This document shows, one piece after another, positions 8,427-24,496 of a stretch of 51,949 nucleotides of DNA. The translations under genes were made by a program, and so were the position numbers. Every line of letters begins with the position of its first letter. Position 1 is the first letter of the stretch. The DNA comes from Flavobacterium branchiophilum NBRC 15030 = ATCC 35035 (lineage in GTDB: Bacteria; Bacteroidota; Bacteroidia; Flavobacteriales; Flavobacteriaceae). The DNA is taken from the NCBI RefSeq assembly GCF_002217205.1, contig NZ_MUGT01000054.1:1-51949 (forward strand), read 5' to 3'. The notes beneath the pieces were generated by a model. That model searched no databases. It was not told the DNA's origin and saw only the letters and a program-made list of their open reading frames with translations.

Positions 8427-8467
8427 CTTGAATTGTATTTTTTTTTGAATTGTTACAAATTTCGTTC

Positions 8468-8596: not shown

Positions 8597-8600
8597 GGTG

Positions 8601-8631
8601 CAAATTTAATATATTTTTGTTAAATATTCAA
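8601..8631 (-). promoter_or_regulatory. Promoter of the putative small RNA
   Basis: On the minus strand, TTG (8631-8629), 20 bases, then TAAATTTG (8608-8601) matches the Bacteroidota promoter consensus exactly. The predicted start is near 8595. Confidence 0.6.
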
Positions 8632-9340: not shown

Positions 9341-9371
9341 TTGTTTTTTTTAATTATTTCAAATACTTTTG
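9341..9371 (+). promoter_or_regulatory. Main promoter of the ter cluster
   Basis: TTG (9341-9343), 20 bases, then TACTTTTG (9364-9371) is an exact consensus match. It predicts a transcript start about 28 bases before the first terD ATG at 9406. No comparable promoter was recognised before the later genes up to 22132, whose spacing is mostly 1-20 bases, so this may drive the whole operon. Confidence 0.7.
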
Positions 9372-9405
9372 TAATATTGTAAATCTATTATAAACAATTT
9401 TAAGC

Positions 9406-9981
9406 ATGGCAATAAATTTACAAAAAGGTCAAAAAATTGACATCGGATTATCAAAAATCACGGTAGGTTTAGGTTGGGATCCCAATGAAGGCACAGGACA
9501 TGGTTTTGATTTAGACGCTTCGGCAATCATGATTGATGAAAACAGAAAATTATTAGGCGAAGAATATTTTATTTTTTATAACAATTTGAGTTCGCCAGAC
9601 GGTTCTTTAACCCACACGGGCGATGACCCAACAGGTGGAAACAGCGACGGAAGTGACGATGAAGCAATAAAAGTAGATCTTAATCTAGTAAACGAAAAAG
9701 TGCAAGAAATCCTTTTTGTAGTTACTATTGAAGACTTTGAACGCAGAAAACAAAACTTTGGACAAGTTAGAAATTCGTACATCCGAATAGTGGATGAAAA
9801 CACAAATACAGAAATTGCCAAATACGAATTGGACGAAGACTTTTCTATAGAAACAGGTGTTGAGTTTGGAAGGCTTTATAAAAGAAATGGCCAATGGAAA
9901 TTTGAAGCTTCGGGTATAGGCTATCGAGCTGATTTGGGTTTCTTTTTAGAGAAATATTATTCAGGACAAATCATCAAATAA
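9406..9981 (+). CDS. TerD family protein (paralogue 1)
   Basis: The 191-aa protein is a single TerD domain, a calcium-binding beta-sandwich found in tellurite and stress clusters. Family landmarks are the start MAINLQKGQKIDI, KITVGLGWD, FDLDASAIMI, and the acidic loop HTGDDPTGGNSDGSDDEAI, which would supply the Ca2+ ligands, then VVTIEDFERRKQNFGQVRNSYIRI and the end LYKRNGQWKFEASG. It is the first gene of the cluster. The HAD gene follows after 2 bases. TerD proteins are cytoplasmic or membrane-associated; the precise biochemical role is not settled. Its loop is longer than in paralogues 2 and 4. Confidence 0.92.
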   Translation: MAINLQKGQKIDIGLSKITVGLGWDPNEGTGHGFDLDASAIMIDENRKLLGEEYFIFYNNLSSPDGSLTHTGDDPTGGNSDGSDDEAIKVDLNLVNEKVQEILFVVTIEDFERRKQNFGQVRNSYIRIVDENTNTEIAKYELDEDFSIETGVEFGRLYKRNGQWKFEASGIGYRADLGFFLEKYYSGQIIK

Positions 9982-9983
9982 TT

Positions 9984-10661
9984 TTGAAAAACACATCATT
10001 TCCTAACTTGCCAATACATCAATTCGAACATTTGTCTTTTGATTTATGGCTTACATTAATTCGATCGAATCCTGAATTTAAAGCCAAAAGGAATCAATTA
10101 TTTCTTGATTTTTTTGAAATCAAGGCCTCTTTTGAAACCGTAAGTAAGATCATAAGATATTATGATGTGTTATGCAATACTATGAATGAAAAAACGGGTT
10201 TAAATATTGATACTTTTGAAATTTATTATTTAATTTTAAACGCATTACAGGTTGATATTTCAGCCATTTCTATCGAAAAATTAAATTTATTTTATTCGGA
10301 AACAGAAAAATTATTTATGCAATATAAACCAGTATTAATATATCCTAAATTGAAACAACAATTTAATGTTTGGTCTAAAGAGCATAAAACAATTAATATT
10401 TTGAGTAATACTGGATTTATAAAAGGAAAAACATTGCGTAAATTATTAAATTATTATGAGTTAGATACTTACATTTCTTTTCAAATATATTCTGATGAAG
10501 AAAAGTTTTCTAAACCAAATTTTATTATATTTGACAAAGTTTTTTGCCAAGTAAACCAAATCAAATCGCTCCAAAAAAACCAAATTGTACATATTGGCGA
10601 TAATCCATTAGCCGATTATCAGGGAGCAGCTTCTTTTGGATTTAAAGCAATATTAATTTAA
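9984..10661 (+). CDS. HAD-superfamily hydrolase-like protein of the ter cluster
   Basis: The start is a TTG two bases after the terD stop; no ATG fits the N-terminal alignment better. The 225-aa protein has the HAD layout: motif I LSFDLWLTLI, motif II ILSNTGF, motif III Lys in EEKFSKPNF, and motif IV VHIGDNPLADYQGAASFGF. The second Asp of the usual DxDxT is a Trp (DLWLT), so it keeps the nucleophile but lacks the general acid of typical phosphatases; a similar variation occurs in haloacid-dehalogenase-like branches. HAD and PRTase genes have been reported together in ter clusters, where they were proposed to act on a nucleotide-like metabolite. The substrate is unknown. Confidence 0.8.
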   Translation: MKNTSFPNLPIHQFEHLSFDLWLTLIRSNPEFKAKRNQLFLDFFEIKASFETVSKIIRYYDVLCNTMNEKTGLNIDTFEIYYLILNALQVDISAISIEKLNLFYSETEKLFMQYKPVLIYPKLKQQFNVWSKEHKTINILSNTGFIKGKTLRKLLNYYELDTYISFQIYSDEEKFSKPNFIIFDKVFCQVNQIKSLQKNQIVHIGDNPLADYQGAASFGFKAILI

Positions 10662-10671
10662 TAAAATATAA

Positions 10672-11475
10672 GTGAATACACGTTTTAGCTTACATAAAAT
10701 AATAGACAAAGACCAATATCCTTTTGATCCAAAGGCTTACAGCTGGTTTAAATTTGGCGATAAAAAATATGCACAAGCATTTGCTTATGATTTGTTTCAA
10801 GCATTTATTTCAAATTATAAAGAGGTACTTTTAAAACATGACGAAATTGTCATTTTACCTAGCCCTTATTTGTCTATTCCTACGGCTTCTAATTTTTTGT
10901 GTTATTATTTTAAAAAAGAACTCAATCAATTTTTATTCCATCACCATAAAAAGGCCTCTTTAGAATCTAAAATCTATCGCAATCAAACGTATGTTACGGA
11001 TTATGGTAATTTAAACTTTGAGGATAGGGTGCAATTGATTTCGAATGATACTTATTATATTGACAGTAATTTTATAAAAAACAAACTATGTTTGTTTGTA
11101 GATGATATAAAAATAACCGGAAGTCATGAGCATACTGTAAATAAAATTCTAAATCAATATCAGGTCAAAGGCGATTTTATATTTATTTATTTTGCAGAAT
11201 TAATTAATAAAGAAATACATCCAAAAATTGAAAATTTTTATAACTATTATGCTGTTCAAAACCTACATGATATTATCAACATCATCAACAGGCCAACTTT
11301 TCAGTACAATACTAGAATTGTAAAATACATTTTGAATTTGAATCAAGATTCGTTTCAAACTTTAATAAATGCTATTGGAGAAAACCAAAAAAAGGAATTA
11401 TTTCATTTGGCAATTAGTAATAATTACCATCAAATCACGGATTATAAAACAAATATTCAATCAATTATAATTTAA
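10672..11475 (+). CDS. Phosphoribosyltransferase-like protein of the ter cluster
   Basis: This 267-aa protein starts with GTG ten bases after the HAD gene. The best motif is LFVDDIKITGSHEHTV at about residues 141-156, which fits the type I PRTase PRPP-binding loop (hydrophobic strand, two acids, then small residues and T-G). An upstream IVILPSPYLSIPTASN segment would be the other substrate-side loop. The family occurs in ter clusters beside HAD proteins. The C-terminal 100 residues are alpha-helical and unassigned. Reaction and base specificity cannot be inferred; the ATP-grasp and lyase-like genes of larger ter metabolite modules are not present here. Confidence 0.7.
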   Translation: MNTRFSLHKIIDKDQYPFDPKAYSWFKFGDKKYAQAFAYDLFQAFISNYKEVLLKHDEIVILPSPYLSIPTASNFLCYYFKKELNQFLFHHHKKASLESKIYRNQTYVTDYGNLNFEDRVQLISNDTYYIDSNFIKNKLCLFVDDIKITGSHEHTVNKILNQYQVKGDFIFIYFAELINKEIHPKIENFYNYYAVQNLHDIINIINRPTFQYNTRIVKYILNLNQDSFQTLINAIGENQKKELFHLAISNNYHQITDYKTNIQSIII

Positions 11476-11491
11476 AAAAAAACTAAAAATT

Positions 11492-12046
11492 ATGGCTATT
11501 AATTTACAAAAAGGGCAAAGAGAAAATATCAATGCTCCACAATTTACAATCGGTTTAGGTTGGGACACCAATCAATCGTCAACAGGCTCAGGATTTGATT
11601 TAGACGCTTCGGTTTTTGTATTAGGCGAAAACAAAAAAATGTTGTCCGATGATCATTTTGTTTTTTATAACAACTTAAAAACACCAGATGGCGCTGTAGA
11701 GCACACCGGAGATAATTTAACAGGTGATGGCGATGGGGATGACGAGCAAATCAAGGTAAATTTATCAAAAATAGCAGCCAATGCTTCTGAAATTTGTATT
11801 GTTGTTACCATTCATGATGCCGAAGAACGAAAACAAAATTTTGGACAAGTTCGCAATTCTTTCATCCGAATATTTGATACAGCAAGCAATCAAGAGATTT
11901 TAAAATATGAATTGGACGAAGATTTTTCTATAGAAACTGCAGTAGAATTTGGTCGAATTTACAAACGCAATGACGAATGGAAATTTGAAGCAGTAGGAAT
12001 GGGAATGAAAGGCGGATTACAAGATTATTTAAACAAATACAATTAA
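11492..12046 (+). CDS. terD: TerD family protein (paralogue 2)
   Basis: The 184-aa protein is a classical TerD domain: MAINLQKGQRENI, FTIGLGWDTN, FDLDASVFVLG, the acidic loop HTGDNLTGDGDGDDEQI, VVTIHDAEERKQNFGQVRNSFIRIFD, and YELDEDFSIETAVEFGRIYKRN. It closely resembles paralogue 4 (14732-15286), including the C-terminal GGLQDYLNKYN. The next TerD gene starts three bases after its stop. The acidic loop should bind Ca2+ as in other TerD/TerZ proteins. Confidence 0.95.
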   Translation: MAINLQKGQRENINAPQFTIGLGWDTNQSSTGSGFDLDASVFVLGENKKMLSDDHFVFYNNLKTPDGAVEHTGDNLTGDGDGDDEQIKVNLSKIAANASEICIVVTIHDAEERKQNFGQVRNSFIRIFDTASNQEILKYELDEDFSIETAVEFGRIYKRNDEWKFEAVGMGMKGGLQDYLNKYN

Positions 12047-12049
12047 ATC

Positions 12050-12658
12050 ATGGCTATCAATTTAGAAAAAGGACAAAGAATCAACCTCGAAAAAGGCAAT
12101 GGAAGCAAATTACAAAATATTTGTGTAGGAATCAACTGGGGTGCTATTGAGAAAAAAGGGTTGTTTGGTACCAAAAAAGAAGCCGTAGATTTAGACGGAA
12201 GTTGCACCGTTTATGATGCCAATAAAAATGCAATAGATACCGTTAGTTTTAAAAAATTAATGTCATCTGATCAAGCTATAAAACACAGCGGTGATGATTT
12301 AACAGGCGATTTGAATGGAGACGATGGTCTTGATAATGAGATTATTACATTAGATTTAGCCCGTTTAAATCCGAATGCAAATTATGTTGCATTTTATATC
12401 AATAGTTTCCGTGGACAAGATTTTAAAGATATTCCTTTTGCATCCATTCGTATTTTTGAAGGAACGCCTTCAAGAGTGCAAGAAGTTTTTGCAAAATATG
12501 ATGTGGCAAACGATAAAAATTTTGCAGGAAGTGTCTCTATGGTTTTAGGTGTTTTCTACAAAAGAAATAATGAGTGGAAATTTAATGCTATTGGGGAACC
12601 AACTAGAGATCGAAATATCGAAGAAACAGTGGTTACAATTCAACAAAATTATTTATAA
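12050..12658 (+). CDS. TerD family protein (paralogue 3, TerZ-like long form)
   Basis: The 202-aa protein belongs to a divergent TerD branch: MAINLEKGQRINL, ICVGINWG followed by an insertion with basic residues (EKKGLFGTKKEAVDLDGSC), then KHSGDDLTGDLNGDDGLDNEIITLDL and the end KYDVANDKNFAGSVSMVLGVFYKRN. The DxDG and GDDLTG acidic clusters keep the calcium-binding character. It pairs with paralogue 2 exactly as paralogue 5 pairs with paralogue 4. It is followed after four bases by telA. Confidence 0.92.
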   Translation: MAINLEKGQRINLEKGNGSKLQNICVGINWGAIEKKGLFGTKKEAVDLDGSCTVYDANKNAIDTVSFKKLMSSDQAIKHSGDDLTGDLNGDDGLDNEIITLDLARLNPNANYVAFYINSFRGQDFKDIPFASIRIFEGTPSRVQEVFAKYDVANDKNFAGSVSMVLGVFYKRNNEWKFNAIGEPTRDRNIEETVVTIQQNYL

Positions 12659-12662
12659 TTAA

Positions 12663-13751
12663 ATGGAAACCAATCAAAACATGCATCCAGAGAATGCTTT
12701 AGTCATTTCTAAAGAAGGAACGGTAAATTTAGAAGTGATTTCTCCAGCAGACATGACTGTTTATCAACCTATTACTGAAAAATTAGTAGAAAGCGACACC
12801 AATTCAATCATCAATTTTGGGGCTGAAATTCAACAAAATATTTCCAAACAAAGTGATCATTTTTTGAATTCCGTTCGAACGTATAATTCCGGAGAAGTGG
12901 GCAATCATATCAATGAATTATTAACCGAATTGAATTATATAGACGTTGACGAATTGCAACAATCGGGTTTTAAGAAATTCTTGAAAAATGTTCCTTTTCT
13001 GAAAAATTTGGTAACAAATGTTGAAAAAATGTTCCAAAAATATGATAAAGTTACAGCAAATATTGAAAAAATAAGCAATAAGGTGAAAGCAGGAATGATC
13101 AATTCTGCAAAAGATAATGCCGCTTTGCAAACTATGTTTGATGCCAATGTAAATCAAATTAAGGAAATCGAAAAATACATCGTTGCGGGTTCGTTGAAAT
13201 GGAAACAAGTTAACGAAGATTTGGCCGTTATGGAAGGCAATCCATCGCAATATCAAGACTATCAAATTGCCGATAAAAGAGATTTTTCTATCCGTTTAGA
13301 CAAGCGATTGGCAGACATGAAAATTGTTCGTTTTATTATGATGCAAACCCTGGCACAAATTCGTGTGGTGCAAAATAATAACACCTCAATAGCCGAAAAA
13401 GCACAATCTATATTGACCACGACCATGCCTGTTTGGAAAAACCAATTGACATTGGCAGTAGCATTACAACGTCAAAAACAAAATATTGAGGTGCAAAGAA
13501 AAGTATCCGAAACAACGAATACAATTCTACAAAAAAATGCGGAAATGCTCAAACAAAATAGCATCGAAGTGGCTCGAGAAAATGAAAATACCATTGTGTC
13601 TTTGGAAACCTTAAAAATGACTACACAATCTTTGATTGAAACCTTAACAGAGGTGAAACAAATTCATGAACAAGGTACAGAAACAAGAAGAGCATTGGAT
13701 ACGGGATTACAACAATTAGAAACCGAATTGAAGAAAAATATTATTTCTTAA
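12663..13751 (+). CDS. telA: Toxic anion resistance protein TelA family
   Basis: The 362-aa protein is almost entirely alpha-helical with long amphipathic stretches and matches the TelA/KlaA family (toxic anion resistance, PF05816). Typical segments are the start ISPADMTVYQPI, FLKNVPFLKNLVTNVEKMFQKYDKV, the QYQDYQIADKRDFSIRLDKRLADMK block, and the coiled-coil-rich C-terminus with EVQRKVSETTNTILQKNAEML. TelA genes occur in tellurite and stress clusters and associate with TerD-like proteins or membranes; the mechanism is unknown. Here it separates the two TerD pairs and precedes an unassigned gene. Confidence 0.9.
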   Translation: METNQNMHPENALVISKEGTVNLEVISPADMTVYQPITEKLVESDTNSIINFGAEIQQNISKQSDHFLNSVRTYNSGEVGNHINELLTELNYIDVDELQQSGFKKFLKNVPFLKNLVTNVEKMFQKYDKVTANIEKISNKVKAGMINSAKDNAALQTMFDANVNQIKEIEKYIVAGSLKWKQVNEDLAVMEGNPSQYQDYQIADKRDFSIRLDKRLADMKIVRFIMMQTLAQIRVVQNNNTSIAEKAQSILTTTMPVWKNQLTLAVALQRQKQNIEVQRKVSETTNTILQKNAEMLKQNSIEVARENENTIVSLETLKMTTQSLIETLTEVKQIHEQGTETRRALDTGLQQLETELKKNIIS

Positions 13752-13770
13752 TCTATAAAAAATCATTTTT

Positions 13771-14730
13771 TTGGAAGAAAATGCCCTCATAAAAGACAGT
13801 GAAAAGCGCATAAACAAGTTGAAAGTATTGCATCATTTTTTTGATCATCAACTTGTTGTGGCTATTTCCGTTCGCACAAGGGTTATTCATGATATATTCG
13901 CTTCAAATACGGCTTTGGATAGCAACAAATTAGAGCTTTTTCATTTGCAATATACCGATTCACTTTTGGATGTATTGAAAAAATTAAAGAAAAAAAACGA
14001 ACAAAAATATTTGATTTTCAATAATGAAATCACGATAAATCAAGAATTGATAGATGAATTTCAAAAAGAAATAGAAAAAGATGTTTTTTATGATAGGGTA
14101 AAAACACACAACTTGATCATGCAGGCATTTATGCAATCGCTTTATCAGGATTTGGCTTATGAAAATACGGTTTCTGTTTTAACCAATTTGAAAGAAAAAA
14201 ACGATTTATCAGACGAATTGGGATTGGAATTTTATCGTAAAATTTCAGAAGAAAATTATCAAAAATTTGTATCCTATCCTAGAAATGCTTCGTATCAGTT
14301 TTTAGATTTTGAAATCGAAAAAAAATTAATTGGAAAACTAAATACACAACATTTTATGTTCAAATTAGGTTGTGGTTTTCAATTTAATGGCTTTTTTATT
14401 GAAGTTTATGAATTCATTCATAGCAATGACTATTTTGTTTATATAAAAGACAAAAAACAGTATTTTTTCATTAATAAAAAAGATTTTAATGGCTTGGATT
14501 TTTCAAGAAACAAGTCCAATAAAAAGGAAATTATTGTGCAACTCAAACAAAAAAATGAACAAATTCAAATAAAAGCCAAACAGCAATTGCATTTGGTGCC
14601 CAATGAAGTAGAAAATGTATTAAAAGAGTATTTAGACAAAATTACTTCGGTAGAATTTTTAGATGATTTACAAAATATCGATGAAGAAACAAATATTTTA
14701 AAAACAATGTTAAACTTAAACATAAAATAA
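13771..14730 (+). CDS. Unassigned protein of the ter cluster, 319 aa
   Basis: I do not recognise this protein. A TTG at 13771, 19 bases after telA, gives the longest frame. The first 190 residues look helical and charged (DSEKRINKLKVLHHFFDHQLVVAISVR and onwards), while the last 130 look like beta strands (FKLGCGFQFNGFFIEVYEFIHSNDYFVYIKDKKQYFF) followed by a Lys/Gln-rich helix. No signal peptide, membrane segment or catalytic motif is visible. It is embedded between telA and terD with one base to the next ATG, so it almost certainly belongs to the same operon, perhaps as a TelA partner. That role is a guess. Confidence 0.6.
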   Translation: MEENALIKDSEKRINKLKVLHHFFDHQLVVAISVRTRVIHDIFASNTALDSNKLELFHLQYTDSLLDVLKKLKKKNEQKYLIFNNEITINQELIDEFQKEIEKDVFYDRVKTHNLIMQAFMQSLYQDLAYENTVSVLTNLKEKNDLSDELGLEFYRKISEENYQKFVSYPRNASYQFLDFEIEKKLIGKLNTQHFMFKLGCGFQFNGFFIEVYEFIHSNDYFVYIKDKKQYFFINKKDFNGLDFSRNKSNKKEIIVQLKQKNEQIQIKAKQQLHLVPNEVENVLKEYLDKITSVEFLDDLQNIDEETNILKTMLNLNIK

Positions 14731-14731
14731 T

Positions 14732-15286
14732 ATGGCGATCAATTTAGAAAAAGGTCAAAGAGAAAAAATTAATGTACCGAGCTTCAAAGTAGGCTTGGGA
14801 TGGGATAGCAATCAAAGTGCCACAGGGGATGCATTCGATATTGATGCCTCGGTTTTCATTTTAGGAGCAAACGGAAAATTAGTAAGTGATAATCATTTTG
14901 TATTTTTCAATAATTTAGCGTCACCAGATGGAGCTGTGGTGCATAGTGGTGATAATTTAACAGGTGCTGGCGATGGAGATGATGAAGTAATTTCAATAGA
15001 TTTATCCAAAATAACAAACGATGTAACCGAAATTACATTTGTTGTAACCATTCACAAAGCCGCTGAAAAAAGACAAAATTTTGGTCAAATTAGAAATTCA
15101 TTTATCCGAGTTGTGAACCAACAAAATAATGAAGAAATCGTTAAATACGAATTAGATGAAGATTTTTCTATAGAAACCGCAGTCGAATTTGGACGAATTT
15201 ATAAACGCAATGACGAATGGCGTTTTGAAGCCGTTGGGAATGGACTAAAAGGCGGATTACAAGATTTTTTAAACAAATATAACTAA
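14732..15286 (+). CDS. terD: TerD family protein (paralogue 4)
   Basis: The 184-aa TerD domain protein is a near twin of paralogue 2 in length and motif order: MAINLEKGQREKI, FKVGLGWDSN, FDIDASVFILG, the acidic loop HSGDNLTGAGDGDDEVI, VVTIHKAAEKRQNFGQIRNSFIRV, YELDEDFSIETAVEFGRIYKRN and GGLQDFLNKYN. It is followed after 16 bases by the long-form TerD paralogue 5, repeating the order seen at 11492-12658. Confidence 0.95.
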   Translation: MAINLEKGQREKINVPSFKVGLGWDSNQSATGDAFDIDASVFILGANGKLVSDNHFVFFNNLASPDGAVVHSGDNLTGAGDGDDEVISIDLSKITNDVTEITFVVTIHKAAEKRQNFGQIRNSFIRVVNQQNNEEIVKYELDEDFSIETAVEFGRIYKRNDEWRFEAVGNGLKGGLQDFLNKYN

Positions 15287-15302
15287 CCAAAATCAATCAA
15301 AA

Positions 15303-15962
15303 ATGGCAATTAATTTATCAAAAGGTCAAAAAATTGACTTAAGAAAAACCACAGGCGAAACATTAACAAACTTTTGTGTAGGTGTAAACTGGGGTGGTAT
15401 TGAAAAGAAAACATTATTCGGTTTATCCAAAACAACTCAAGATGTAGATTTGGATTTAAGCTGTGTATTAATTGACGATCAAAACAATATTTGCGATCAT
15501 TTATATTCTCCATTATATCGTGTGGAAGTATTGCAACAATTTGGTCTTCCTAAAGGAAAATTATTAACTTCGGATAGCGCTTTGAAACATACAGGTGATG
15601 ATTTACAAGGAGATAAAGGTGGTGATGATGGTCTTGACAACGAAATTATTACGGTAGATTTAACAAAAATAAATAGCAATGTAAGCCAAATATTCTTCTT
15701 CTTGAACAATGCAGGTGCTGAAGATTTTGCTCAAATTCCGTATGCAAAAATCAGAATGTATGAAGGAACGCCAACGCGTGTAAATTCCGTTTTTGCAGAT
15801 TATAATGTTTCTGCTGAAGCACAATATGCAGGTAAACGCTCATTAATTATGGGTAAATTATACAAAAGAAATGGCGAATGGAAATTTAGTGCCATTGGAG
15901 ATCCAACAGAAGATTCTTTCTTAGGACAAACTATTCATCGAATTGTAAAATCCTATCTATAA
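15303..15962 (+). CDS. TerD family protein (paralogue 5, TerZ-like long form)
   Basis: The 219-aa protein is the counterpart of paralogue 3: MAINLSKGQKIDL, FCVGVNWGGIEKKTLFG, VDLDLSCVLIDD, KHTGDDLQGDKGGDDGLDNEIITVDL and SLIMGKLYKRNGEWKFSAIGDPTED. It has about 17 extra residues between strands (LYSPLYRVEVLQQFGLPKGK) compared with paralogue 3. The C-termini are also alike (IVKSYL here, IQQNYL there). It presumably binds calcium through the GDD loops. Confidence 0.92.
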   Translation: MAINLSKGQKIDLRKTTGETLTNFCVGVNWGGIEKKTLFGLSKTTQDVDLDLSCVLIDDQNNICDHLYSPLYRVEVLQQFGLPKGKLLTSDSALKHTGDDLQGDKGGDDGLDNEIITVDLTKINSNVSQIFFFLNNAGAEDFAQIPYAKIRMYEGTPTRVNSVFADYNVSAEAQYAGKRSLIMGKLYKRNGEWKFSAIGDPTEDSFLGQTIHRIVKSYL

Positions 15963-15965
15963 TTT

Positions 15966-16367
15966 ATGCTAATCAAAAACATCGAAGGATTACGAGTTGC
16001 AGAAATTAAAGATTTAGTAAATAGAGGGGGGAAATTTGTTATTTTCCCCTATACCATTTCTTTTGTTGTTATGACTCTTCAACGCAATTCCGATATCTAT
16101 TTTATTCGTCCTGAAGAAAAATCAATAAAATATTCTTTATCTTATGTTTTAATGAATTTTTTTATTGGTTGGTGGGGCATTCCTTGGGGTCCCATTTACA
16201 CAATTGGTGCTATTTACAGACATTTACAAGGTGGTAAAGATGTAACCGCTATTGTCCTGACAGACCTGATTCAAAATGATCCTGAAGCAGATACTTCAAC
16301 TTATGCTATCAATACCATGAATTCTTCAGATTCTAATGCTAACAATGGGTATAATATTCCCCGTTAA
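15966..16367 (+). CDS. Small membrane-associated protein of the ter cluster
   Basis: The 133-aa protein begins MLIKNIEGLRVAEIKDLVNRGGKF, followed by a hydrophobic segment FVIFPYTISFVVMTLQR and, around residues 58-80, a very aromatic stretch MNFFIGWWGIPWGPIYTIGAI that looks membrane-embedded. The last 35 residues are polar and Asn/Ser-rich. I recognise no characterised family. Its position, three bases after TerD paralogue 5 and 12 bases before the first terY, makes it an operon member and a candidate membrane docking subunit. Confidence 0.65.
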   Translation: MLIKNIEGLRVAEIKDLVNRGGKFVIFPYTISFVVMTLQRNSDIYFIRPEEKSIKYSLSYVLMNFFIGWWGIPWGPIYTIGAIYRHLQGGKDVTAIVLTDLIQNDPEADTSTYAINTMNSSDSNANNGYNIPR

Positions 16368-16379
16368 TTTCAATTTATT

Positions 16380-17018
16380 ATGAGAAGATTACCAGTTTAT
16401 TTGCTTTTAGACACTTCGGGTTCCATGAATGGCGAACCTATTGAAGCCGTGAAAAATGGCGTTCAAGTGATGATTTCTTCTTTAAGACAAAATCCGCAAG
16501 CTATTGAAACCGCTTTTTTGAGTGTTATTACCTTTGATAGTGTGGCACAACAACTTATTCCGCTTACCGATTTGGCTTCTTTTCAAATGGTAGATTTGAA
16601 AGCAACTGGAGTTACCGCTCTTGGTGAAGCACTAAAATTAGTAGCTCACAAAATAGATACCGAAGTAGCTAAAACTACTATGGATCACAAAGGCGACTGG
16701 AAACCATTAGTATTTATTATGACCGATGGAATTCCAACTGACGACTGGCAAGCCGGATTAATTGAATTTAAAAACAGAAAAACCGCATTTACCGTAGCTT
16801 GTGCCGCAGGTAGTGGTGCAGATACAAAAGTACTCAAACAAATTACAGATAATGTAGTGAGTTTGGACAATGCAGATGGTGCGAGTATTAGTAAATTTTT
16901 TCAATGGGTAACCGCTTCTATCGGCGTTAGTTCTACAAAAGTGGAAGACAATGGTAAAGATATCCAAGGGTTTAAAGAATTGCCACCGCCACCGCCTGAA
17001 TTAAATATTGTAGTTTAA
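16380..17018 (+). CDS. TerY-like vWA domain protein 1
   Basis: The 212-aa protein is a single von Willebrand A domain. The metal site DTSGSM (DxSxS, residues 11-15) lies right after the start MRRLPVYLLL, the MIDAS threonine is in GVTALGEAL, and the conserved Asp in FIMTDGIPTDD. This is the TerY type, which in ter systems works with a PP2C phosphatase and a kinase, both encoded downstream. The C-terminus is a short proline run followed by a hydrophobic end (LPPPPPELNIVV), also seen in TerY protein 2. One base separates its stop from the microprotein start. Confidence 0.9.
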   Translation: MRRLPVYLLLDTSGSMNGEPIEAVKNGVQVMISSLRQNPQAIETAFLSVITFDSVAQQLIPLTDLASFQMVDLKATGVTALGEALKLVAHKIDTEVAKTTMDHKGDWKPLVFIMTDGIPTDDWQAGLIEFKNRKTAFTVACAAGSGADTKVLKQITDNVVSLDNADGASISKFFQWVTASIGVSSTKVEDNGKDIQGFKELPPPPPELNIVV

Positions 17019-17019
17019 A

Positions 17020-17175
17020 ATGTCAAAATTCGGATTTTCATTTTCGCTTTCTAGATTATTAGGCATTACAGGTGTAAAGCAACGTTTTGCTAGAAAAACA
17101 GGCATACCAACATCAAAAACTGGTATAGAACGAAAAATGGGAAGTTTGATAATTCGTTCCTTATTTAAAAAATAA
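17020..17175 (+). CDS. 51-aa basic microprotein of the ter cluster
   Basis: A short frame, ATG at 17020 and TAA at 17173-17175, fits exactly between terY1 (one base gap) and terY2 (four base gap). The product, beginning MSKFGFSFSLSRLLGITGVK and continuing QRFARKTGIPTSKTGIERK, is strongly basic and has aromatic residues at the N-terminus. Short proteins of this look (FGFSFS, a G-I-T-x-x-K-x-x-x-AR-x-TGIPT core) seem familiar from other Bacteroidota, which suggests conservation, but I know no function. The perfect packing within the operon is the strongest evidence that it is a real gene. Confidence 0.65.
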   Translation: MSKFGFSFSLSRLLGITGVKQRFARKTGIPTSKTGIERKMGSLIIRSLFKK

Positions 17176-17179
17176 TTTT

Positions 17180-17815
17180 ATGAGAAGATTACCCGTTTAT
17201 TTTTTATTAGACACTTCGGGTTCTATGTATGGCGAACCTATTCAGGCTTTGAATAATGCCCTTGCTGGAATGGTCAATAATTTACGTCAAGACCCATTAG
17301 CGCTGGATTCTCTTTGGATCAGTATTATTACTTTTGATCGAGATGTAAACGAAATTTGCCCGTTGACCGAATTGGCTTTGTTTCAATTGCCAGAAATTTC
17401 TTGTCCGCAAAGTGGCCCCACGCATACTGGAAAGGCTTTAGAATTATTGTATAGCAAAGTTCAAACCGATATAATGAAAAGTACTGAAACCCAAAAAGGC
17501 GATTGGAAACCCTTACTTTTTCTTTTTACAGACGGAAAACCTTCTGATATTCAATTATATAACGAAATAGCGCCTAAGTTTAAAAATCTAAATTTTGGAG
17601 CCATTGTTGCTTGTGCAGCAGGAAATTTAGCCGATGATTCCAAATTAAAACTATTGACCGATGATGTGGTACATTTAGACAATGCGGATAGTGCTACATT
17701 AAAGCAATTTTTCAGATGGGTTTCTGAAACTATTGAACAAGGAAATAAAAGTCAAGGAACTGGAGAAAGTGTAGCACTTCCTCCTCCTCCAAGCGAAATA
17801 ACTTTAGTAATATGA
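17180..17815 (+). CDS. TerY-like vWA domain protein 2
   Basis: The 211-aa protein is a paralogue of TerY 1: MRRLPVYFLLDTSGSMYGEPI with the DxSxS metal site at 11-15, GPTHTGKALELL holding the MIDAS threonine, and LFLFTDGKPSD. The C-terminus again ends in prolines and a hydrophobic tail (VALPPPPSEITLVI). Its TGA overlaps the ATG of the next small membrane protein gene (ATGA), implying translational coupling. Expected to bind divalent metal and mediate protein-protein contacts in the TerY/kinase/phosphatase module. Confidence 0.9.
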   Translation: MRRLPVYFLLDTSGSMYGEPIQALNNALAGMVNNLRQDPLALDSLWISIITFDRDVNEICPLTELALFQLPEISCPQSGPTHTGKALELLYSKVQTDIMKSTETQKGDWKPLLFLFTDGKPSDIQLYNEIAPKFKNLNFGAIVACAAGNLADDSKLKLLTDDVVHLDNADSATLKQFFRWVSETIEQGNKSQGTGESVALPPPPSEITLVI

Positions 17816-18066
17816 GAACGCTTTTGCATTTCTTTATTATTATAGTCATTGTAGGGCTGTTTTTATACAATAAATTATTGCCTTATAAAGAAAAACTCAA
17901 TCCACAATATAAAAAAGTGTTTTCCTTTTTTGACGCTATTTTTTCTCCTGTTTTTGAAATATTGAAGTCAATTTTTAAACCTGTTCAAGTAGGATACGGA
18001 TTATTTGTGGACATGACCCAAGTGATTGTTTTACTGATTTTATTGTTTTTATTACATTTATTTTAA
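17812..18066 (+). CDS. Small two-helix membrane protein of the ter cluster
   Basis: The 84-aa protein has a hydrophobic N-terminal helix (LLHFFIIIVIVGLFLYNKLL), a positively charged middle and a second hydrophobic helix at the C-terminus (TQVIVLLILLFLLHLF). No family is recognised. The ATG overlaps the terY2 stop, and the stop is three bases before terY3, so it is part of the operon. It resembles YggT-like proteins in size and layout, but that is only a loose similarity. It could recruit TerY proteins to the membrane (inference). Confidence 0.65.
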   Translation: MRTLLHFFIIIVIVGLFLYNKLLPYKEKLNPQYKKVFSFFDAIFSPVFEILKSIFKPVQVGYGLFVDMTQVIVLLILLFLLHLF

Positions 18067-18069
18067 AAT

Positions 18070-19116
18070 ATGAGAAGATTACCTATATATTTCTTGATAG
18101 ACGTTTCCGAATCGATGGTTGGGGAACAAATTCAATTTGTTGAAGAAGGAATGGCAACAATAATCAAAGCCATTAAACAAGATCCACACGCTATTGAAAC
18201 CGTTTGGGTCTCCATTATTATTTTTGCGGGTCAAGCCAAAACCCTTGTGCCTTTGCAAGAAATCGTGAGTTTCTATCCGCCAAAATTCCCTATTGGTGGA
18301 GGCACTTCTTTCGGAAAAGGTCTGGGGCATTTGATGTATGAACTTAGAAAAAACACGGTTAAAACTACTTTTGAACAAAAAGGCGATTGGAAACCAATTG
18401 TATTTTTGTTTACAGATGGTGTACCCACTGATGATGCCAAACCTGCAATAAACGAATGGAAACAAAATTGGGCAAGAACAGCAAATCTTGTAACCATTTC
18501 TTTTGGTGACGATACCGATACATCGCTTTTGAGTGAATTGACTGAAAATGTTTTACAATTTAAAAATACAACGGAAGAAGATTATAAAAAATTCTTCAAA
18601 TGGATTACCGATTCCATCAAAACAAGCAGCGTTAGTGTCGAAAAAAGCAGCTCCGGCTTTGAATTAGCCGAAATTGATCATGACACGATAACAAAAATTG
18701 ATTTGACCAAGCAACCACCAAAAAAAGTGAATGTGGACAGTAATTTTGTAGTGCTTTCAGCAAAATGTCAAAATTCTAAACGTCCGTATTTAATGAAATA
18801 TAAAAAATTCGTCCAACCCTCTATTTATGCGGGTATGGAAACGCGTTCGTATCGATTAGTAGGTGGTTTTCAGATCGATAACTCCTATTTTGATTTGTCC
18901 GATGATGAGCAAATGAACACACAAATCAATAGTGAAGAGTTAGTTGGTGCTCCTGCCTGCCCTTGCTGTGACAATCAATATGGTTTTGCTATGTGCCAAT
19001 GTGGAAAAATTCATTGCATTGGCGACGAAGAACTAAACACCTGCCCATGGTGTGGCAATCAAGGAAATTATGGCTTTGGAGATGGCAGTTTTGATGTAAA
19101 CAGAACATTAGGATAA
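18070..19116 (+). CDS. TerY-like vWA protein 3 with C-terminal zinc ribbon
   Basis: The 348-aa protein joins a vWA domain (residues 1 to about 205) to an extra C-terminal part. The metal site reads DVSESM, which keeps DxSxS, with GGTSFGKGL and FLFTDGVPTDD downstream. A linker follows, then a beta-rich segment (VVLSAKCQNSKRPYLMKYKK and onwards) and a cysteine-rich end at about 294-336 with CPCC, CQCGKIHC and CPWCGN, which fits the TerY-C zinc ribbon. Unlike TerY 1 and 2 it has no proline tail. It precedes the PP2C gene by nine bases. Confidence 0.88.
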   Translation: MRRLPIYFLIDVSESMVGEQIQFVEEGMATIIKAIKQDPHAIETVWVSIIIFAGQAKTLVPLQEIVSFYPPKFPIGGGTSFGKGLGHLMYELRKNTVKTTFEQKGDWKPIVFLFTDGVPTDDAKPAINEWKQNWARTANLVTISFGDDTDTSLLSELTENVLQFKNTTEEDYKKFFKWITDSIKTSSVSVEKSSSGFELAEIDHDTITKIDLTKQPPKKVNVDSNFVVLSAKCQNSKRPYLMKYKKFVQPSIYAGMETRSYRLVGGFQIDNSYFDLSDDEQMNTQINSEELVGAPACPCCDNQYGFAMCQCGKIHCIGDEELNTCPWCGNQGNYGFGDGSFDVNRTLG

Positions 19117-19125
19117 TCAAAAAAA

Positions 19126-20607
19126 ATGACAAAATCATATATAGAAAAATTATTATTTGCTCACAATAAGACAATAACTCCAAAAAATAATCTTATTTTT
19201 GAAGCATTTATTAACGATTCTGAAATAATAAATGCAGTTGCAACTATATTAAATCAACAAAAACAAATTATGGCAAATTGGCAAATTCGTGAAAGTATTC
19301 ATGACATCATTTCGGCTTCCATTCCAATTCCTAATGGCACCGTTGGAAAAGTATATGACTATGCTTTTGCTAATGAAAATGCGCTTTGGAACAACATGCT
19401 CCATTTTGAAATGAAAGGTCTTGAAAATGTCGGTTTGCAATTTGACCCTATTGAAAAACGAATTTTTGGAACCCCAAATAACAATGGTGATTTTAAAATA
19501 ATTTTAAAATTCAGAGTTAATGGTGAACTAGAAAACAGCATTTTAAACGAAAAAACAATCAATTTAATCATCAATGCCGATCCAAAATCGCTTTGGCAAA
19601 ATAAAGCGAGTGATCATACGGATCCATTTTGGAAAGAAGATAATGTAACTTCTTTTGAAAAAATTGGCGATAAAAATATTGTAGTAGCTTCAAAAAGAGG
19701 ACGTTCTCATGCCAATGTAGGTTCGTTTCGAGACGATGATTTTGCCTTTCATCATTTTGAAAAAAACAATTGGAGTGTTGTTGCCGTTTCTGATGGTGCT
19801 GGAAGTGCAAAATATTCCAGAAAAGGCTCAGAAATAGCTTGTAATGAAGTCATTAATTTTTTTGAAATCCATTTTACAGAAGCTCCATTAAACGATTTTG
19901 ATTTGCTTTTAAAAGAATATGCCAAAGAAAATAATTTGGCTAAAGAACTAATAAATACAGAAGCAATTCCTCAAGAGCAGCCGATACAAGAGCAAAAAAC
20001 TGCGTCGAATAAAACATCCAATCAAATAGCGATAAGCAAATTTATTTACCATTATTTAGGCGGTTGTGCCAAACACGTTTTTAATAAATTAGATGATTTT
20101 GCAAATAAAAACGGTTTTGAAATCAAAGATTTGCACAGTACATTAATTTTTACCTTGTTCAAAAAATACGATTTTGGGTATGTTTTACTTTCTTTTGGTG
20201 TGGGCGATTGTCCTATTGCTGTCATCAACAAAGATTTTTCTGATTTTAAACTCATGAATTGGCTAGATGTGGGAGATTATGGCGGAGGCACCCGATTTAT
20301 TACCATGCCTGAAATTTTTACAAATGATAAATTTTCAAGTCGATTTGGTTTTAAAATTTTTGATGATTTTTCATATTTAATGCTCATGACAGATGGTATT
20401 TATGATGCCAAATTTGTGGTGGAAGCCAATTTGGAGAAATTAGATAAATGGAAAGAATTTATTGCCGATTTGAACGGAAATAATGAAGATCAAGCAAAAG
20501 TAATTTTTGATGCAACCCATCCTGATTTAGCCCATCAACTATCAAATTGGATGGATTTTTGGAGTCCAGGAAATCATGATGACCGAACTTTAGCCGTGAT
20601 ATTTTAA
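19126..20607 (+). CDS. PP2C-family protein phosphatase with N-terminal Ig-like region
   Basis: The 493-aa protein carries a PPM/PP2C catalytic domain from about residue 180: RSHANVGSFRDDDFAF, AVSDGAGSAKYSRKGSEIA (D223), LLMLMTDGIYDAKF with a metal-site Asp near 423, and GNHDDRTLAVIF at the end. It should remove phosphate from Ser/Thr using Mn or Mg. The first 150 residues contain a segment (GKVYDYAF, FDPIEKRIFGTPNNNGDF, NLIINADPKSLW) that resembles a putative-Ig (He_PIG/cadherin-like) fold. That fusion is unusual for a cytoplasmic phosphatase. A polar Gln/Glu/Pro linker interrupts the catalytic domain near 285-300. With the next gene it forms the phosphatase/kinase pair of the cluster. Confidence 0.88.
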   Translation: MTKSYIEKLLFAHNKTITPKNNLIFEAFINDSEIINAVATILNQQKQIMANWQIRESIHDIISASIPIPNGTVGKVYDYAFANENALWNNMLHFEMKGLENVGLQFDPIEKRIFGTPNNNGDFKIILKFRVNGELENSILNEKTINLIINADPKSLWQNKASDHTDPFWKEDNVTSFEKIGDKNIVVASKRGRSHANVGSFRDDDFAFHHFEKNNWSVVAVSDGAGSAKYSRKGSEIACNEVINFFEIHFTEAPLNDFDLLLKEYAKENNLAKELINTEAIPQEQPIQEQKTASNKTSNQIAISKFIYHYLGGCAKHVFNKLDDFANKNGFEIKDLHSTLIFTLFKKYDFGYVLLSFGVGDCPIAVINKDFSDFKLMNWLDVGDYGGGTRFITMPEIFTNDKFSSRFGFKIFDDFSYLMLMTDGIYDAKFVVEANLEKLDKWKEFIADLNGNNEDQAKVIFDATHPDLAHQLSNWMDFWSPGNHDDRTLAVIF

Positions 20608-20623
20608 TTTAAAAACAATTCAA

Positions 20624-22132
20624 ATGTCGATAATAACAGTAAAATCAATATTAAATGACGCAACTTATCAATATATTGATACGGGTGACCCCAAAAGTGG
20701 CACTGCTAAAAATGTCTATTTTAGTCCCGATAGAAAATATGTTGTAGCCATTTTCAAAGAAAAACAAGATTTCAACCAAATTGACCGTCTCAAACGTATT
20801 GCAAGTGTGCAACTCGAACGCATAAAAAAAATGGATGGAGGCGATTATTATTTGGAAGAATTGTTCCGATGGCCCACGGATGTTATTGAATCCAATGGAA
20901 AAACAGGGATAATTGTTCCGATTTATAAACCCAATTATTTCTTTAAAATAGGGTATGCCAATCAAGATTTAATCAAAGGAGAAGAAAAAAACGGAAAGTG
21001 GTTTGCTGGTGCTAAATTTAGAAACAAACTATTTCCATTGAGTTTAGATGCTTCAGAACTAGGCAATTGGCTCAATTATTTTCAAATTTGTATCAATATT
21101 TGCAGAGGTGTAAAAAAATTGCACCAAATGGGATTGGCACATTCCGATTTATCGTATAATAATGTTTTGATAGATCCCATTACAAAATCCGCCGTGATTA
21201 TTGATTTAGATGGCATGGTGGTACCAGGAATTTATCCCGCAGAAGTATTAGGTACGGCTGATTTTATAGCTCCTGAAGTATTGGCTACCAAACATTTGGA
21301 CCTCAACGATCCGAATAGAAAGTTGCCAAATATCAGAACCGATTTGCATGCCTTACCCGTTTTGATTTATATGTTATTATTACACAGACATCCATTAAAA
21401 GGTGGAAAAGTGCATGATTTGGACACCGAAAAAGACGATTTACTTTCAATGGGAGAAAAAGCGTTGTTTATAGAACATCCATCAGACAAAAGCAATCGCC
21501 CGAAAATGAATCAAGTTTCCAAATGGGATTTATATTGGTCGGATATTGACAAATTGCCATACACCATCACTGGACCCTATTTGAAACCGCTTTTTGACCG
21601 AGCCTTTATCGATGGTCTGCATCAACCTATGGCACGGCCAACTGCCGAAGAATGGGAAACTGCTTTGTTGAAAACTTCCGATTTGGTGCAAACTTGTAGC
21701 AATACCGCTTGCGAACAAAAATGGTATGTGTTTGATAATACCAACACGCCTAGATGTCCGTTTTGTGGCACCAAACACCAAGGTTCATTGCCTATTTTGG
21801 ATTTTTATTCACAATTCAATGAAGGCGTTTGGAAACCAGAAAATCATCGGTTGATGGTGTATCACAACCAATATTTGTTTCAATGGCATGTGAATAAAAA
21901 CATCATTCGCAGTGAAAAATTGTCCAATGAACAAAAAATTCCTGTTGGATATTTTACTTTTATTGATAACAAATGGGTATTTGTGAACCAAAAATTAACT
22001 TCTTTGGTGGATAAAACAGCAAACAAAGAAATCCCTATTGGAACCATGCTCGAACTCACGGATGGAAAACAAATTCTATTGTCCAAAGAACCCGGCGGAA
22101 GAGTGATGCTGGTAACCTTGGCTAATAAATAA
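20624..22132 (+). CDS. Ser/Thr protein kinase-like protein with zinc ribbon
   Basis: The 502-aa protein has a protein-kinase fold in its first 340 residues. The catalytic loop reads HSDLSYNN at about residues 173-180 and the metal-binding segment is DLDG near 195 instead of DFG; APEVL (in IAPEVLAT) follows as the APE motif. A four-Cys zinc ribbon (CSNTACEQKW ... CPFCGTKH) lies at about 357-382, and the remaining 120 residues are beta-rich. The arrangement matches the kinase partner of TerY and PP2C in ter clusters. It has no membrane segment. Catalytic residues appear complete, so it is probably active. Confidence 0.85.
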   Translation: MSIITVKSILNDATYQYIDTGDPKSGTAKNVYFSPDRKYVVAIFKEKQDFNQIDRLKRIASVQLERIKKMDGGDYYLEELFRWPTDVIESNGKTGIIVPIYKPNYFFKIGYANQDLIKGEEKNGKWFAGAKFRNKLFPLSLDASELGNWLNYFQICINICRGVKKLHQMGLAHSDLSYNNVLIDPITKSAVIIDLDGMVVPGIYPAEVLGTADFIAPEVLATKHLDLNDPNRKLPNIRTDLHALPVLIYMLLLHRHPLKGGKVHDLDTEKDDLLSMGEKALFIEHPSDKSNRPKMNQVSKWDLYWSDIDKLPYTITGPYLKPLFDRAFIDGLHQPMARPTAEEWETALLKTSDLVQTCSNTACEQKWYVFDNTNTPRCPFCGTKHQGSLPILDFYSQFNEGVWKPENHRLMVYHNQYLFQWHVNKNIIRSEKLSNEQKIPVGYFTFIDNKWVFVNQKLTSLVDKTANKEIPIGTMLELTDGKQILLSKEPGGRVMLVTLANK

Positions 22133-22195
22133 AAAAAATATTATTTTAAAACACGATTTATAATTCAAAATTTTTTAAACTCAAATAAATTAAAA

Positions 22196-23194
22196 ATGAA
22201 CAATCACCCTATTTTTTCGGAGCATCCATGGCTCATTGTTACTTTTGCAGTAGCTGTTTTTGTCATGTTATTATTAGATCTTGGTATCTTTAACAAAAAA
22301 AGTCATGAAGTGTCGAACAAAGAAGCCATAACCTGGTCATTAGTTTGGATTTCTCTAGCAATGGCTTTCAGTGGTTTGGTATATTATTATGCAGGAGCTG
22401 CGAAATTTTATGAATTTCAATCGGCATATTGGATAGAAAAAGCCTTATCTGTGGACAATTTATTTGTGTTTATTCTTGTTTTCAAATTTTTTGATGTTGC
22501 AAATACGAACAAGCACAAAGTATTATTTTGGGGAATCATTGGAGCATTGGTATTGCGAGCCCTATTTATATTCTCAGGAGCCTTTTTGATTGAATTGACC
22601 TATTTGAACAAATTGTTAGGCATTGCAGGAATAGAAGGATTCCAATATGACATCAATATTATCATGACTTTGTTTGGTTTGTTTTTGGTATATGCAGGAA
22701 TCAAATCATGGTCATCAGGAGATGAAGACGAAGACGAAGATTACAACGATACACGAGGAGCAAAATTGATTCGAAAATTTTTCAATGTGAGTGATAAATA
22801 CGATGGTGATAAATTTTTCACTTATGAAAATGGCGTAAAATTCGCAACACCATTATTAGTAGTTGTGGCAGTTATTGAGTTTACCGATTTGTTGTTTGCA
22901 GTAGATTCTATACCAGCCATTTTTGCCATTTCAAACGATCCATTTATACTTTATACTTCCAATATTTTTGCGATTTTAGGACTTAGAGCCTTGTTTTTCT
23001 TATTAGACAATTTCATCCATTTGTTCAACAAATTGCCTTATGGATTGGCAGTAATTCTATCCTTCATTGGAGTAAAAATGATCATTGCCCCGTTTTATCA
23101 TATCGAATCGTTGCATTCCTTGCTAGTTATCGGAGGTGTTTTGGTTATTTCTGTGATTTTGTCACTCCTATTTCCAGACAAGCAAGAAGAATAA
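22196..23194 (+). CDS. terC: TerC family integral membrane protein
   Basis: The 332-aa protein has about nine hydrophobic segments and the TerC signatures: acidic residues inside membrane helices in YWIEKALSVDNLFVFILVF and VVVAVIEFTDLLFAVDSIPAIFAIS, with NIFAILGLRALFFLL after. A cytoplasmic acidic linker (SSGDEDEDEDYND) is present. TerC proteins are tied to tellurite resistance and to manganese or other metal export. The gene starts 63 bases after the kinase stop, a bigger gap than elsewhere in the cluster, so it may have its own promoter, though none is clear. It is the last gene before a hairpin terminator. Confidence 0.93.
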   Translation: MNNHPIFSEHPWLIVTFAVAVFVMLLLDLGIFNKKSHEVSNKEAITWSLVWISLAMAFSGLVYYYAGAAKFYEFQSAYWIEKALSVDNLFVFILVFKFFDVANTNKHKVLFWGIIGALVLRALFIFSGAFLIELTYLNKLLGIAGIEGFQYDINIIMTLFGLFLVYAGIKSWSSGDEDEDEDYNDTRGAKLIRKFFNVSDKYDGDKFFTYENGVKFATPLLVVVAVIEFTDLLFAVDSIPAIFAISNDPFILYTSNIFAILGLRALFFLLDNFIHLFNKLPYGLAVILSFIGVKMIIAPFYHIESLHSLLVIGGVLVISVILSLLFPDKQEE

Positions 23195-23202
23195 TCAATT
23201 AA

Positions 23203-23366
23203 AATACCAAACACTCATATAAAATAGCCCAATCTGCTAGCTCTTTTTCTCCAAATATTTCACAAAAAAATAATTACGTAGCCCAGCTATGAAATGATTT
23301 TTTTATAAAATCTTGAAAAAAAATAGCATTGCATTTTTAGACTATTTTATATAAGTGTTTGGTATT
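23203..23366. mobile_element. MITE-like element with 25-bp terminal inverted repeats
   Basis: The arms 23203-23227 (starting aataccaaacactcatat) and 23342-23366 are inverted copies matching at 24 of 25 positions, and enclose about 114 AT-rich bases with further internal self-complementarity. There is no coding frame. Size and layout fit a non-autonomous MITE or a large cruciform-forming repeat. No target-site duplication could be confirmed. Confidence 0.5.
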
Positions 23367-23374
23367 AAAAGTCA

Positions 23375-23419
23375 AAACACAGTAGCAACTTATTTTTTAG
23401 ATAAGTTGCTACTGTGTTT
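23375..23419. terminator. Terminator between terC and hemH
   Basis: A perfect 19-bp inverted repeat (23375-23393 and 23401-23419, arm starting aaacacagtagcaac) with a seven-base loop lies between the convergent terC and hemH genes. Both flanks are A/T-rich, so it could serve both directions. Confidence 0.75.
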
Positions 23420-23475
23420 ATGAAATCAATAGAAATACGGGTGTTAGTATCTTTGGTATAAACCAGGTGGTTTTG

Positions 23476-24495: not shown

Positions 24496-24496
24496 T

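Follow-up and report, generated by a model that had tools for sequence, protein, structure and literature searches.

Introduction

Ter systems, which were reportedly named in the analysis of Anantharaman et al. in 2012, have a contested function, with stress tolerance, metals, and phage and colicin resistance all having been claimed. Here we analyze a compact run of ter genes at 9406-23194 of a 51,949-nt stretch from Flavobacterium branchiophilum NBRC 15030 = ATCC 35035; this whole stretch is called the window, and window coordinates are used throughout. Judged by gene content and order, we read the run as the form that the Ter stress system takes in Bacteroidota, where it is common and modular; it is not peculiar to flavobacteria.

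For comparison with Bacillus, we take YceC-E to be TerD proteins. Bacillus TerC proteins are reported to metalate exported enzymes, and the TerC gene meeF is part of the operon yceCDEmeeF (PMC10550928). Compared by description only, this operon resembles ours in combining TerD-type and TerC genes, and the portion of PMC10550928 on which we rely names no TerY-P module. In Klebsiella, ter is described as two operons, one of them predicted to make a nucleoside-like metabolite (PMC8115787); terC is reported to affect Zn and tellurite resistance there, with Te, Zn and Mn inducing ter genes (PMC12054061). PMC9933665 states that TerC confers stress tolerance.

Gene content of the operon

Eighteen open reading frames (ORFs), all on the plus strand, span 9406-23194 (family accessions are followed by E values).

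9406..9981, plus strand: TerD a, 191 aa (PF02342, 1.9e-68)
9984..10661, plus strand: HAD hydrolase (PF13419, HAD_2, 7.6e-6), nearest NCBIfam model REG-2-like (TIGR02252, 1e-17, under its cut-off)
10672..11475, plus strand: PRTase_3 with the phosphoribosyl pyrophosphate loop DDxxxTG (PF15610, 9.9e-105)
11492..12046, plus strand: TerD b (PF02342, 1.4e-74)
12050..12658, plus strand: TerD c, divergent type (PF02342, 1.2e-31)
12663..13751, plus strand: TelA (PF05816, 5.5e-96)
13771..14730, plus strand: u319, TelA partner, no Pfam family; helical with a small beta part in its model
14732..15286, plus strand: TerD d (PF02342, 9.6e-74)
15303..15962, plus strand: TerD e (PF02342, 5.1e-29)
15966..16367, plus strand: u133, possible membrane hairpin, with conserved GWWGxxWGPxYT and Y-x-[IV]-[PN] motifs in the C-terminal tail; low-confidence model
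16380..17018, plus strand: vWA1, complete metal-ion-dependent adhesion site (MIDAS), C-terminal PPxE tail (PF00092, 8.5e-13)
17020..17175, plus strand: u51, basic 51-aa microprotein (12 K/R, 1 D/E)
17180..17815, plus strand: vWA2, complete MIDAS, tail of the vWA1 type (PF00092, 1.6e-12)
17812..18066, plus strand: u84, small probable membrane protein (sub-threshold YGGT, 20.5 bits against 27)
18070..19116, plus strand: TerY, vWA plus TerY_C metal-binding domain (PF15616, 7.2e-52)
19126..20607, plus strand: PP2C phosphatase, metal-binding Asp conserved (PF13672, PP2C_2, 9.5e-28)
20624..22132, plus strand: Ser/Thr-type kinase with a four-Cys ribbon at residues 358-381, then 121 residues (PF00069, 2.9e-10)
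22196..23194, plus strand: TerC, Alx type (PF03741, 2.4e-47; TIGR03718, 352 bits against a cut-off of 246)

Pfam assigned 14 of the 18 proteins, namely five TerD proteins (E from 5e-29 to 1e-74), HAD, PRTase_3, TelA, three vWA proteins, of which the third in the operon carries TerY_C (E 7e-52), PP2C, the kinase and TerC. The 319-, 133-, 51- and 84-aa proteins (u319, u133, u51 and u84) had no Pfam match above the curated cut-off. The intergenic gaps are, in order, 2, 10, 16, 3, 4, 19, 1, 16, 3, 12, 1, 4, -4, 3, 9, 16 and 63 bp; 16 of the 17 are at most 19 bp, the exception being the 63 bp between kinase and TerC. Both the families and the spacing agree with the original prediction, made from the letters alone, which had listed this same inventory with at least four unassigned proteins, had placed it on a single strand with spacing mostly under 20 bases, and had seen TerD, TelA, TerY-P, HAD/PRTase and TerC genes united in one compact run. 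Since the genes are so tightly spaced, a single operon is likely.

Several hallmarks of described Ter modules are found together here. The Ter system itself is represented by five TerD-domain proteins, which are all the TerD matches of the whole genome, and by a TerC gene inside the cluster; a TerY-like vWA protein, PP2C and a Ser/Thr kinase adjoin one another as in a TerY-P triad; and PRTase and HAD genes are present as in a Ter biosynthetic cluster. TerD b and TerD d are 72% identical, TerD c and TerD e 49%. Within the 18 operon proteins, to which the search was confined, there is no ATP-grasp, StiP or HpcH/HpaI gene of the kind found on IncHI2. Because TerB is likewise missing from these proteins by Pfam, we file the operon outside the terZABCDEF type; on present assignments it is a Ter system of another layout.

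Comparison with plasmid and defense systems

A TerY relative, always under 60% identity, is present on 2316 plasmid records, most of them from enterobacterial genera. The two plasmids examined, an Enterobacter IncHI2A plasmid and one from Moraxella, both carry vWA-TerD-vWA-TerY-PP2C-kinase in that order, and the combination of three vWA proteins with PP2C and a kinase is therefore not a flavobacterial invention. The Enterobacter cloacae IncHI2A plasmid (NZ_CP123599.1) shares with the window the order vWA, vWA, TerY-C, PP2C, kinase, together with the TerD family, TerC and a PRTase-domain gene, and it also carries terZ, TerB, terC and terD. Its two short vWA proteins end in PPPPPExxxxx, comparable to the PPxE tail here. 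Unlike our operon, the plasmid genes occupy two strands, include TerB, TerW, ATP-grasp, StiP and HpcH/HpaI, and have TerD between the short vWA genes. The window operon, in contrast, lies on one strand, contains TelA-u319, HAD-PRTase_3 and u133/u84, lacks TerB, and has u51 between the vWA genes.

The TerY-P triad known from defense and from association with CoCoNuT has the same vWA, PP2C and kinase components, and the zinc ribbon following the kinase domain here is as described for CoCoNuT TerY-P. Unlike that triad, the present one includes three full-MIDAS vWA proteins and sits inside a ter operon. According to PMC11090510, the second vWA of CoCoNuT type III-A is without the threonine, in contrast to the complete MIDAS here. 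No McrB-like GTPase or HEPN protein of CoCoNuT type II or III-A was seen among the scanned flanking genes at 1331-8498 and 23476-32106.

Distribution and modularity of the layout

We examined the distribution of the layout at three scales. With TerY as a single protein query, one of 100 genomes (100 genera of the family) was matched, namely F. branchiophilum itself. Within the genus, 33 of 398 genomes hold the TerY_C family. We compared stretches of up to 20 kb from the other 32 (only 5.9 kb for L057), and HAD, PRTase and TerD genes lie ahead of TerY-PP2C-kinase in 30 of them, all but L040 and the short stretch of L057. Finally, named genomes were scanned using a TerY alignment; this gave 375 relatives, the best 80 of which, all Bacteroidota and overlapping with the 32 genus genomes, were analyzed; several of these loci end at contig ends, so that presence counts are lower bounds.

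In 74 of the 80 loci, those of HAD, PRT, TelA, u319, vWA1, vWA2, TerY, PP2C, kinase and TerC that are present are colinear on one strand (L116, L126, L136, L137, L141 and L145 depart from this), which argues that the gene order is not due to chance. TerY, PP2C and kinase are all held by 78 loci, and in 77 of these they stand side by side. The order is shared by Flavobacterium, Pedobacter, Chitinophaga, Taibaiella, Emticicia, Algoriphagus, Dyadobacter and other genera. The genes found in these loci are TerDa in 71, HAD in 53, PRT in 54, TelA, u319 and u133 in 35 each, vWA1 in 70, vWA2 in 79, u51 in 18, x155 in 26, u84 in 51, TerY in 80, PP2C in 79, kinase in 78 and TerC in 65. The Bacteroidota ter operons compared (L039-L070 and L073-L152) are thus near-identical in order and strand and differ in cassette content.

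The idea of a separate flavobacterial variant, put forward in the original prediction, is not borne out by these results: the order is common across Bacteroidota, and its vWA-X-vWA-TerY-PP2C-kinase part also occurs on the two proteobacterial plasmids. TelA and the microprotein, which had been counted among the marks of that variant, turned out to be optional, as is HAD-PRTase. That prediction had also named, as evidence against itself, the same gene order recurring as a well-characterized system in many genomes; the many genomes were found, the well-characterized system was not.

Of 82 loci, 35 have both TelA and u319, and none has one without the other; HAD is found in 53, PRT in 54 and both in 53 of the same loci. 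HAD-PRTase and TelA-u319 are optional cassettes. Among the 67 loci of at least 19 kb, four to five TerD genes are present in 32 of 34 with TelA and one to four in 33 of 33 without it, the two ranges overlapping at four. The TelA-u319 cassette may be gained or lost through recombination between TerD pairs. In other loci, RDD, AIM24, DUF4234 and Macro proteins, as well as x155, fill the positions between the vWA genes or ahead of TerY. As side observations, Macro, RDD and AIM24 proteins lie around vWA2 (L117:9495-10004; L097:8450-9052; L136:9372-10001), and x155, a protein of about 155 aa absent from the window, stands between vWA2 and u84 (L041, L045-L048 and others; 26 of the 80 named loci).

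Such mobility of parts raises the alternative that the operon is not one unit, but that a TerD-TelA-metabolite cassette, a TerY-P module and TerC were assembled through exchange of cassettes and share a transcript without working together. Consistent with this, many loci lack HAD, many lack TelA and many lack u51; the Chitinophaga loci L136, L137, L141 and L145 have the HAD-PRT-TerD-TerD-TelA-u319 block after TerC on the opposite strand; L116 has HAD-PRT-TerD-TerD between u51 and vWA2; and L126 has PRT after the kinase. However, even displaced cassettes remain in the same locus, one strand and one order are kept in 74 of the 80 loci, and the genes of the window operon are tightly spaced. We regard this alternative as quite improbable.

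Genomic site

The operon meets hemH, the ferrochelatase gene, 3' to 3', in convergent orientation. Past hemH, between it and the AraC gene preceding hemA, a type III restriction-modification (R-M) set occupies 24497-29663 on the minus strand, 1.3 to 6.5 kb past the operon end:

24497-26359, minus strand: N6/N4 methylase
26399-26770, minus strand: S23-like 23S_rRNA_IVP protein
26784-29663, minus strand: ResIII helicase

Ten relatives without TerY_C keep the order hemH-AraC-hemA. The hemH-AraC distance is within 250 bp in seven of them and 1.1-5.1 kb in three, the AraC-hemA gap is enlarged in two others, and no ter-gene match was found in the 14-17 kb hemH stretch of any of the ten. As the relatives differ there and are without ter genes, we take the hemH region to be a variable site. 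When 16 window flank proteins were compared with 112 relative loci, only one was found near the operon, in L122 alone; the flank covered was short and lay for the most part downstream. We consider the operon probably movable as a unit, although the flanking genes scanned, at 1331-8498 and 23476-32106, include no transposase or integrase.

Conserved residues and proteins without a family

Each of the three vWA proteins in the window has the full set of MIDAS residues, and these are kept, per residue, in 71-73 of 73 vWA1, 80-82 of 82 vWA2 and 83 of 83 TerY sequences. The metal-ligand Asp residues of PP2C are kept in 81 of 81 (one position being D or E), and the kinase retains both the His-x-Asp and D-L-D aspartates and the four ribbon cysteines in 80 of 80.

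The C-terminal 121 residues of the kinase after the ribbon (21767-22132) matched no Pfam family above the cut-off (best Methylase_S, E 0.032), and a search against solved chains, with E up to 1 allowed, gave nothing for them either. An AlphaFold2 model of u319 (predicted local distance difference test, pLDDT, 81.6; predicted TM-score 0.58) had no Foldseek match at E up to 0.001, and its best VIA-align rows (Z 8.2 and below) are mostly coiled-coil and helical proteins, of little meaning. The model of u133 is poor (pLDDT 62). PADLOC returned nothing for u319 or u133; u319, u133, u51 and u84 had no NCBIfam match at E up to 1 and no PHROGs match at E below 0.1.

Proposed function and the anti-phage alternative

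The gene content and order, conserved active- and metal-site residues and cassette behavior observed here fit, with reasonable probability in our judgment, a phospho-regulated, metal-linked envelope Ter stress system encoded as one operon. Beyond these observations we infer how a complex forms and which signal, client and metabolite are involved. In this account TerC would sit in the inner membrane and form a metal-linked envelope complex with the TerD proteins, TelA-u319, u133 and u84, and the three vWA proteins, their metal sites being intact, would serve as metal-dependent scaffolds. The kinase and PP2C would set the phosphorylation of a client among the TerD proteins, TelA or the vWA tails, and a change in that phosphorylation would activate the complex when metals, oxyanions or damage to the envelope stress the cell. 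The optional HAD-PRTase cassette might feed a predicted nucleotide-like metabolite into the same switch.

Several findings weigh against this proposal. The kinase position aligned as the VAIK lysine is Arg in 59 of 80 relatives and the Asn position is Lys in 24 of 80, and with these positions varying, kinase activity is not assured. The second Asp of the HAD DxD motif is replaced by Trp in 54 of 54, which makes phosphatase activity doubtful. TerB is missing from the operon, as noted above; elsewhere in the genome it has two weak partial matches, at 26.7 and 22.1 bits (cut-off 24.4). As far as PMC9933665 reports, Klebsiella TerC is dispensable for metal and radical stress, contrary to PMC12054061. 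TelA and TerD are recorded in biofilm proteomes of Paracoccus and Pseudomonas, not Flavobacterium, in the account of PMC11962581, and the literature matches listed include no experiment on a Bacteroidota ter system.

Alternatively, the operon could be mainly anti-phage, with the TerY-P triad sensing infection and stopping phage via TerD, TelA and the HAD-PRTase product, and with the variable slots holding sensors or effectors. TerY-P triads are reported as stand-alone defense (Gao 2020, as given in PMC11090510 and PMC7699616), and R478 ter is tied to phage inhibition by the title of a paper cited in PMC12054061. The R-M set beyond hemH, the patchy occurrence of the cluster in the genus, and the Macro, RDD, AIM24 and DUF4234 proteins in the same slots of other loci point the same way. 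In contrast, of ten proteins submitted to PADLOC (PRTase, TerD c, TelA, u319, u133, the three vWA proteins, PP2C and kinase), the kinase alone was matched, and only to kinase models of other systems; on viral contigs, no TerY relatives were found. Tested defense TerY-P kinases end in an oligonucleotide/oligosaccharide-binding (OB) fold, according to PMC11090510; the kinase here has a zinc ribbon followed by 121 residues without family or solved relative, which may or may not form such a fold. Weighing the published work on TerC metalation, on Zn, Mn and tellurite, on stress tolerance, on TerY-P defense and on the nucleoside-like metabolite, we favor the metal-linked stress system over pure defense, and consider the anti-phage reading possible but on the doubtful side.

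C-terminal tails of the vWA proteins and the u51 microprotein

Two of the three vWA proteins share a conserved C-terminus:

16989-17015, plus strand: PPxExxxxx tail of vWA1
17786-17812, plus strand: PPxExxxxx tail of vWA2

The end pattern PPxExxxxx-COOH is found in 72 of 72 vWA1, 70 of 81 vWA2 and 0 of 82 TerY sequences, and the short vWA proteins of the Enterobacter and Moraxella plasmid loci (L072 and L071) carry the PPxE tail too. In u133, the motif Y-x-[IV]-[PN] occurs at least once in the last 45 residues of 34 of 34 sequences and at least twice in 28, versus 1 of 34 in the first 90 residues. Both patterns were derived from the same sequences, and the counts therefore describe conservation and are no independent test. 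Going by their form, the vWA tail and the u133 motifs resemble peptides used for docking.

Between the genes for the two tailed vWA proteins, the plasmids have a TerD and some Bacteroidota have u51. In all 18 named ter loci having u51, it lies between vWA1 and vWA2 (L116 has a second copy elsewhere). The gene is under purifying selection, with nonsynonymous divergence (pN) below synonymous divergence (pS) in 105 of 105 pairs from 15 bacterial sequences including the window's (34-codon core, ratio about 0.29). We rejected both an ORF arising by chance and the shadow of a tRNA as explanations of u51, as pN/pS is 0.29 and 0.26 in two sets and no tRNA was found on 13 viral loci.

The family is not confined to ter loci. 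It is present in 23 of 398 genomes of the genus, only five of which (G000, G240, G241, G321 and G336) are among the 33 with TerY_C; with the other 18 outside that group, u51 as a ter-specific part was rejected. Across the phylum, 3 of 198 genomes were matched, one weakly, and the two matches besides the window have no ter gene in their loci of about 3 kb. In the 18 genus genomes without TerY_C we scanned ten neighboring proteins, from ten of 20 stretches (L226-L245), and their matches vary: DUF2130, a CLC channel, an S1/P1 nuclease, a type I-like restriction helicase, an AAA ATPase, an epimerase, a KAP NTPase and Bflower_3, with two lacking a match. In L241, L242 and L244, u51-like genes of the genus recur next to a KAP-type NTPase and a roughly 206-aa protein; the NTPase was matched in L244, and L241 and L242 have blastp relatives of it at the corresponding position. 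An unannotated u51 relative lies on a Criblamydia plasmid (L156).

Viral contigs carry the family as well. In IMG/VR it is found on 13 contigs (L157-L169), with an integrase nearby in ten, a raw count without a chance baseline that includes near-identical contigs; L165 and L166 encode identical u51-like letters. The integrases are of the serine type in L158, L163 and L167 and of the tyrosine type in L159, L160, L162, L164, L165, L166 and L168; among the neighbors scanned, L157, L161 and L169 have none. With both types as neighbors, a role of u51 as the excisionase partner of one integrase type is unlikely. In annotated phage records, the window u51 had no match at E up to 1, and the L116 relative had only five weak matches at E of about 6. 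We conclude that u51 is a member of a roaming family.

Together, tails and slot suggest a more speculative proposal, which we hold to be unlikely on balance: the PPxExxxxx-COOH tails could dock during switch assembly and, with interchangeable small partners encoded between the tailed vWA genes, form a recruiting platform, in which u51, by origin a protein of mobile elements, would have been domesticated to serve the Ter switch as input or output.

Transcription signals

Two features flank the operon:

9341..9371, plus strand: possible promoter of the Bacteroidota type, TTG-N20-TACTTTTG (also written TTG-N20-TANNTTTG), its 3' end 34 bp ahead of the first ATG
23375..23419, no strand assigned: inverted repeat of 19 bp in the interval separating TerC from the convergent hemH, with the T-run on the minus strand

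The 907 bp upstream hold two Bacteroidota-type sites (spacer 17-23) versus 0.26 expected, a number reached by 3% of 500 random sequences. Against a promoter, the whole window has five spacer-20 sites versus 2.6 expected, with 9 of 100 shuffles reaching five, and a strict match lies within 250 bp before TerDa in just 9 of 69 relatives. Matches of the sigma-70 type show no excess (76 versus 74.3 expected from shuffles). Of the earlier claim of one promoter-driven operon, the single operon stands as likely from its spacing; the promoter is a possible one, with sites of this type not above chance over the whole window. As a terminator of the operon, the repeat at 23375-23419 was rejected, since its T-run is on the minus strand and it better fits hemH; a weaker terminator-like site is present on the plus strand at 23277-23291. 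Rfam gave no RNA at gathering scores within 8400-24000, and ARAGORN no tRNA in the window.

Significance

Named Flavobacterium and Pedobacter species carry a compact, one-strand version of ter with natural losses of cassettes, and so lend themselves well to genetic dissection of the system. We have not seen the conserved tail of the vWA proteins or the roaming microprotein described before; both offer testable handles on the assembly of the switch.

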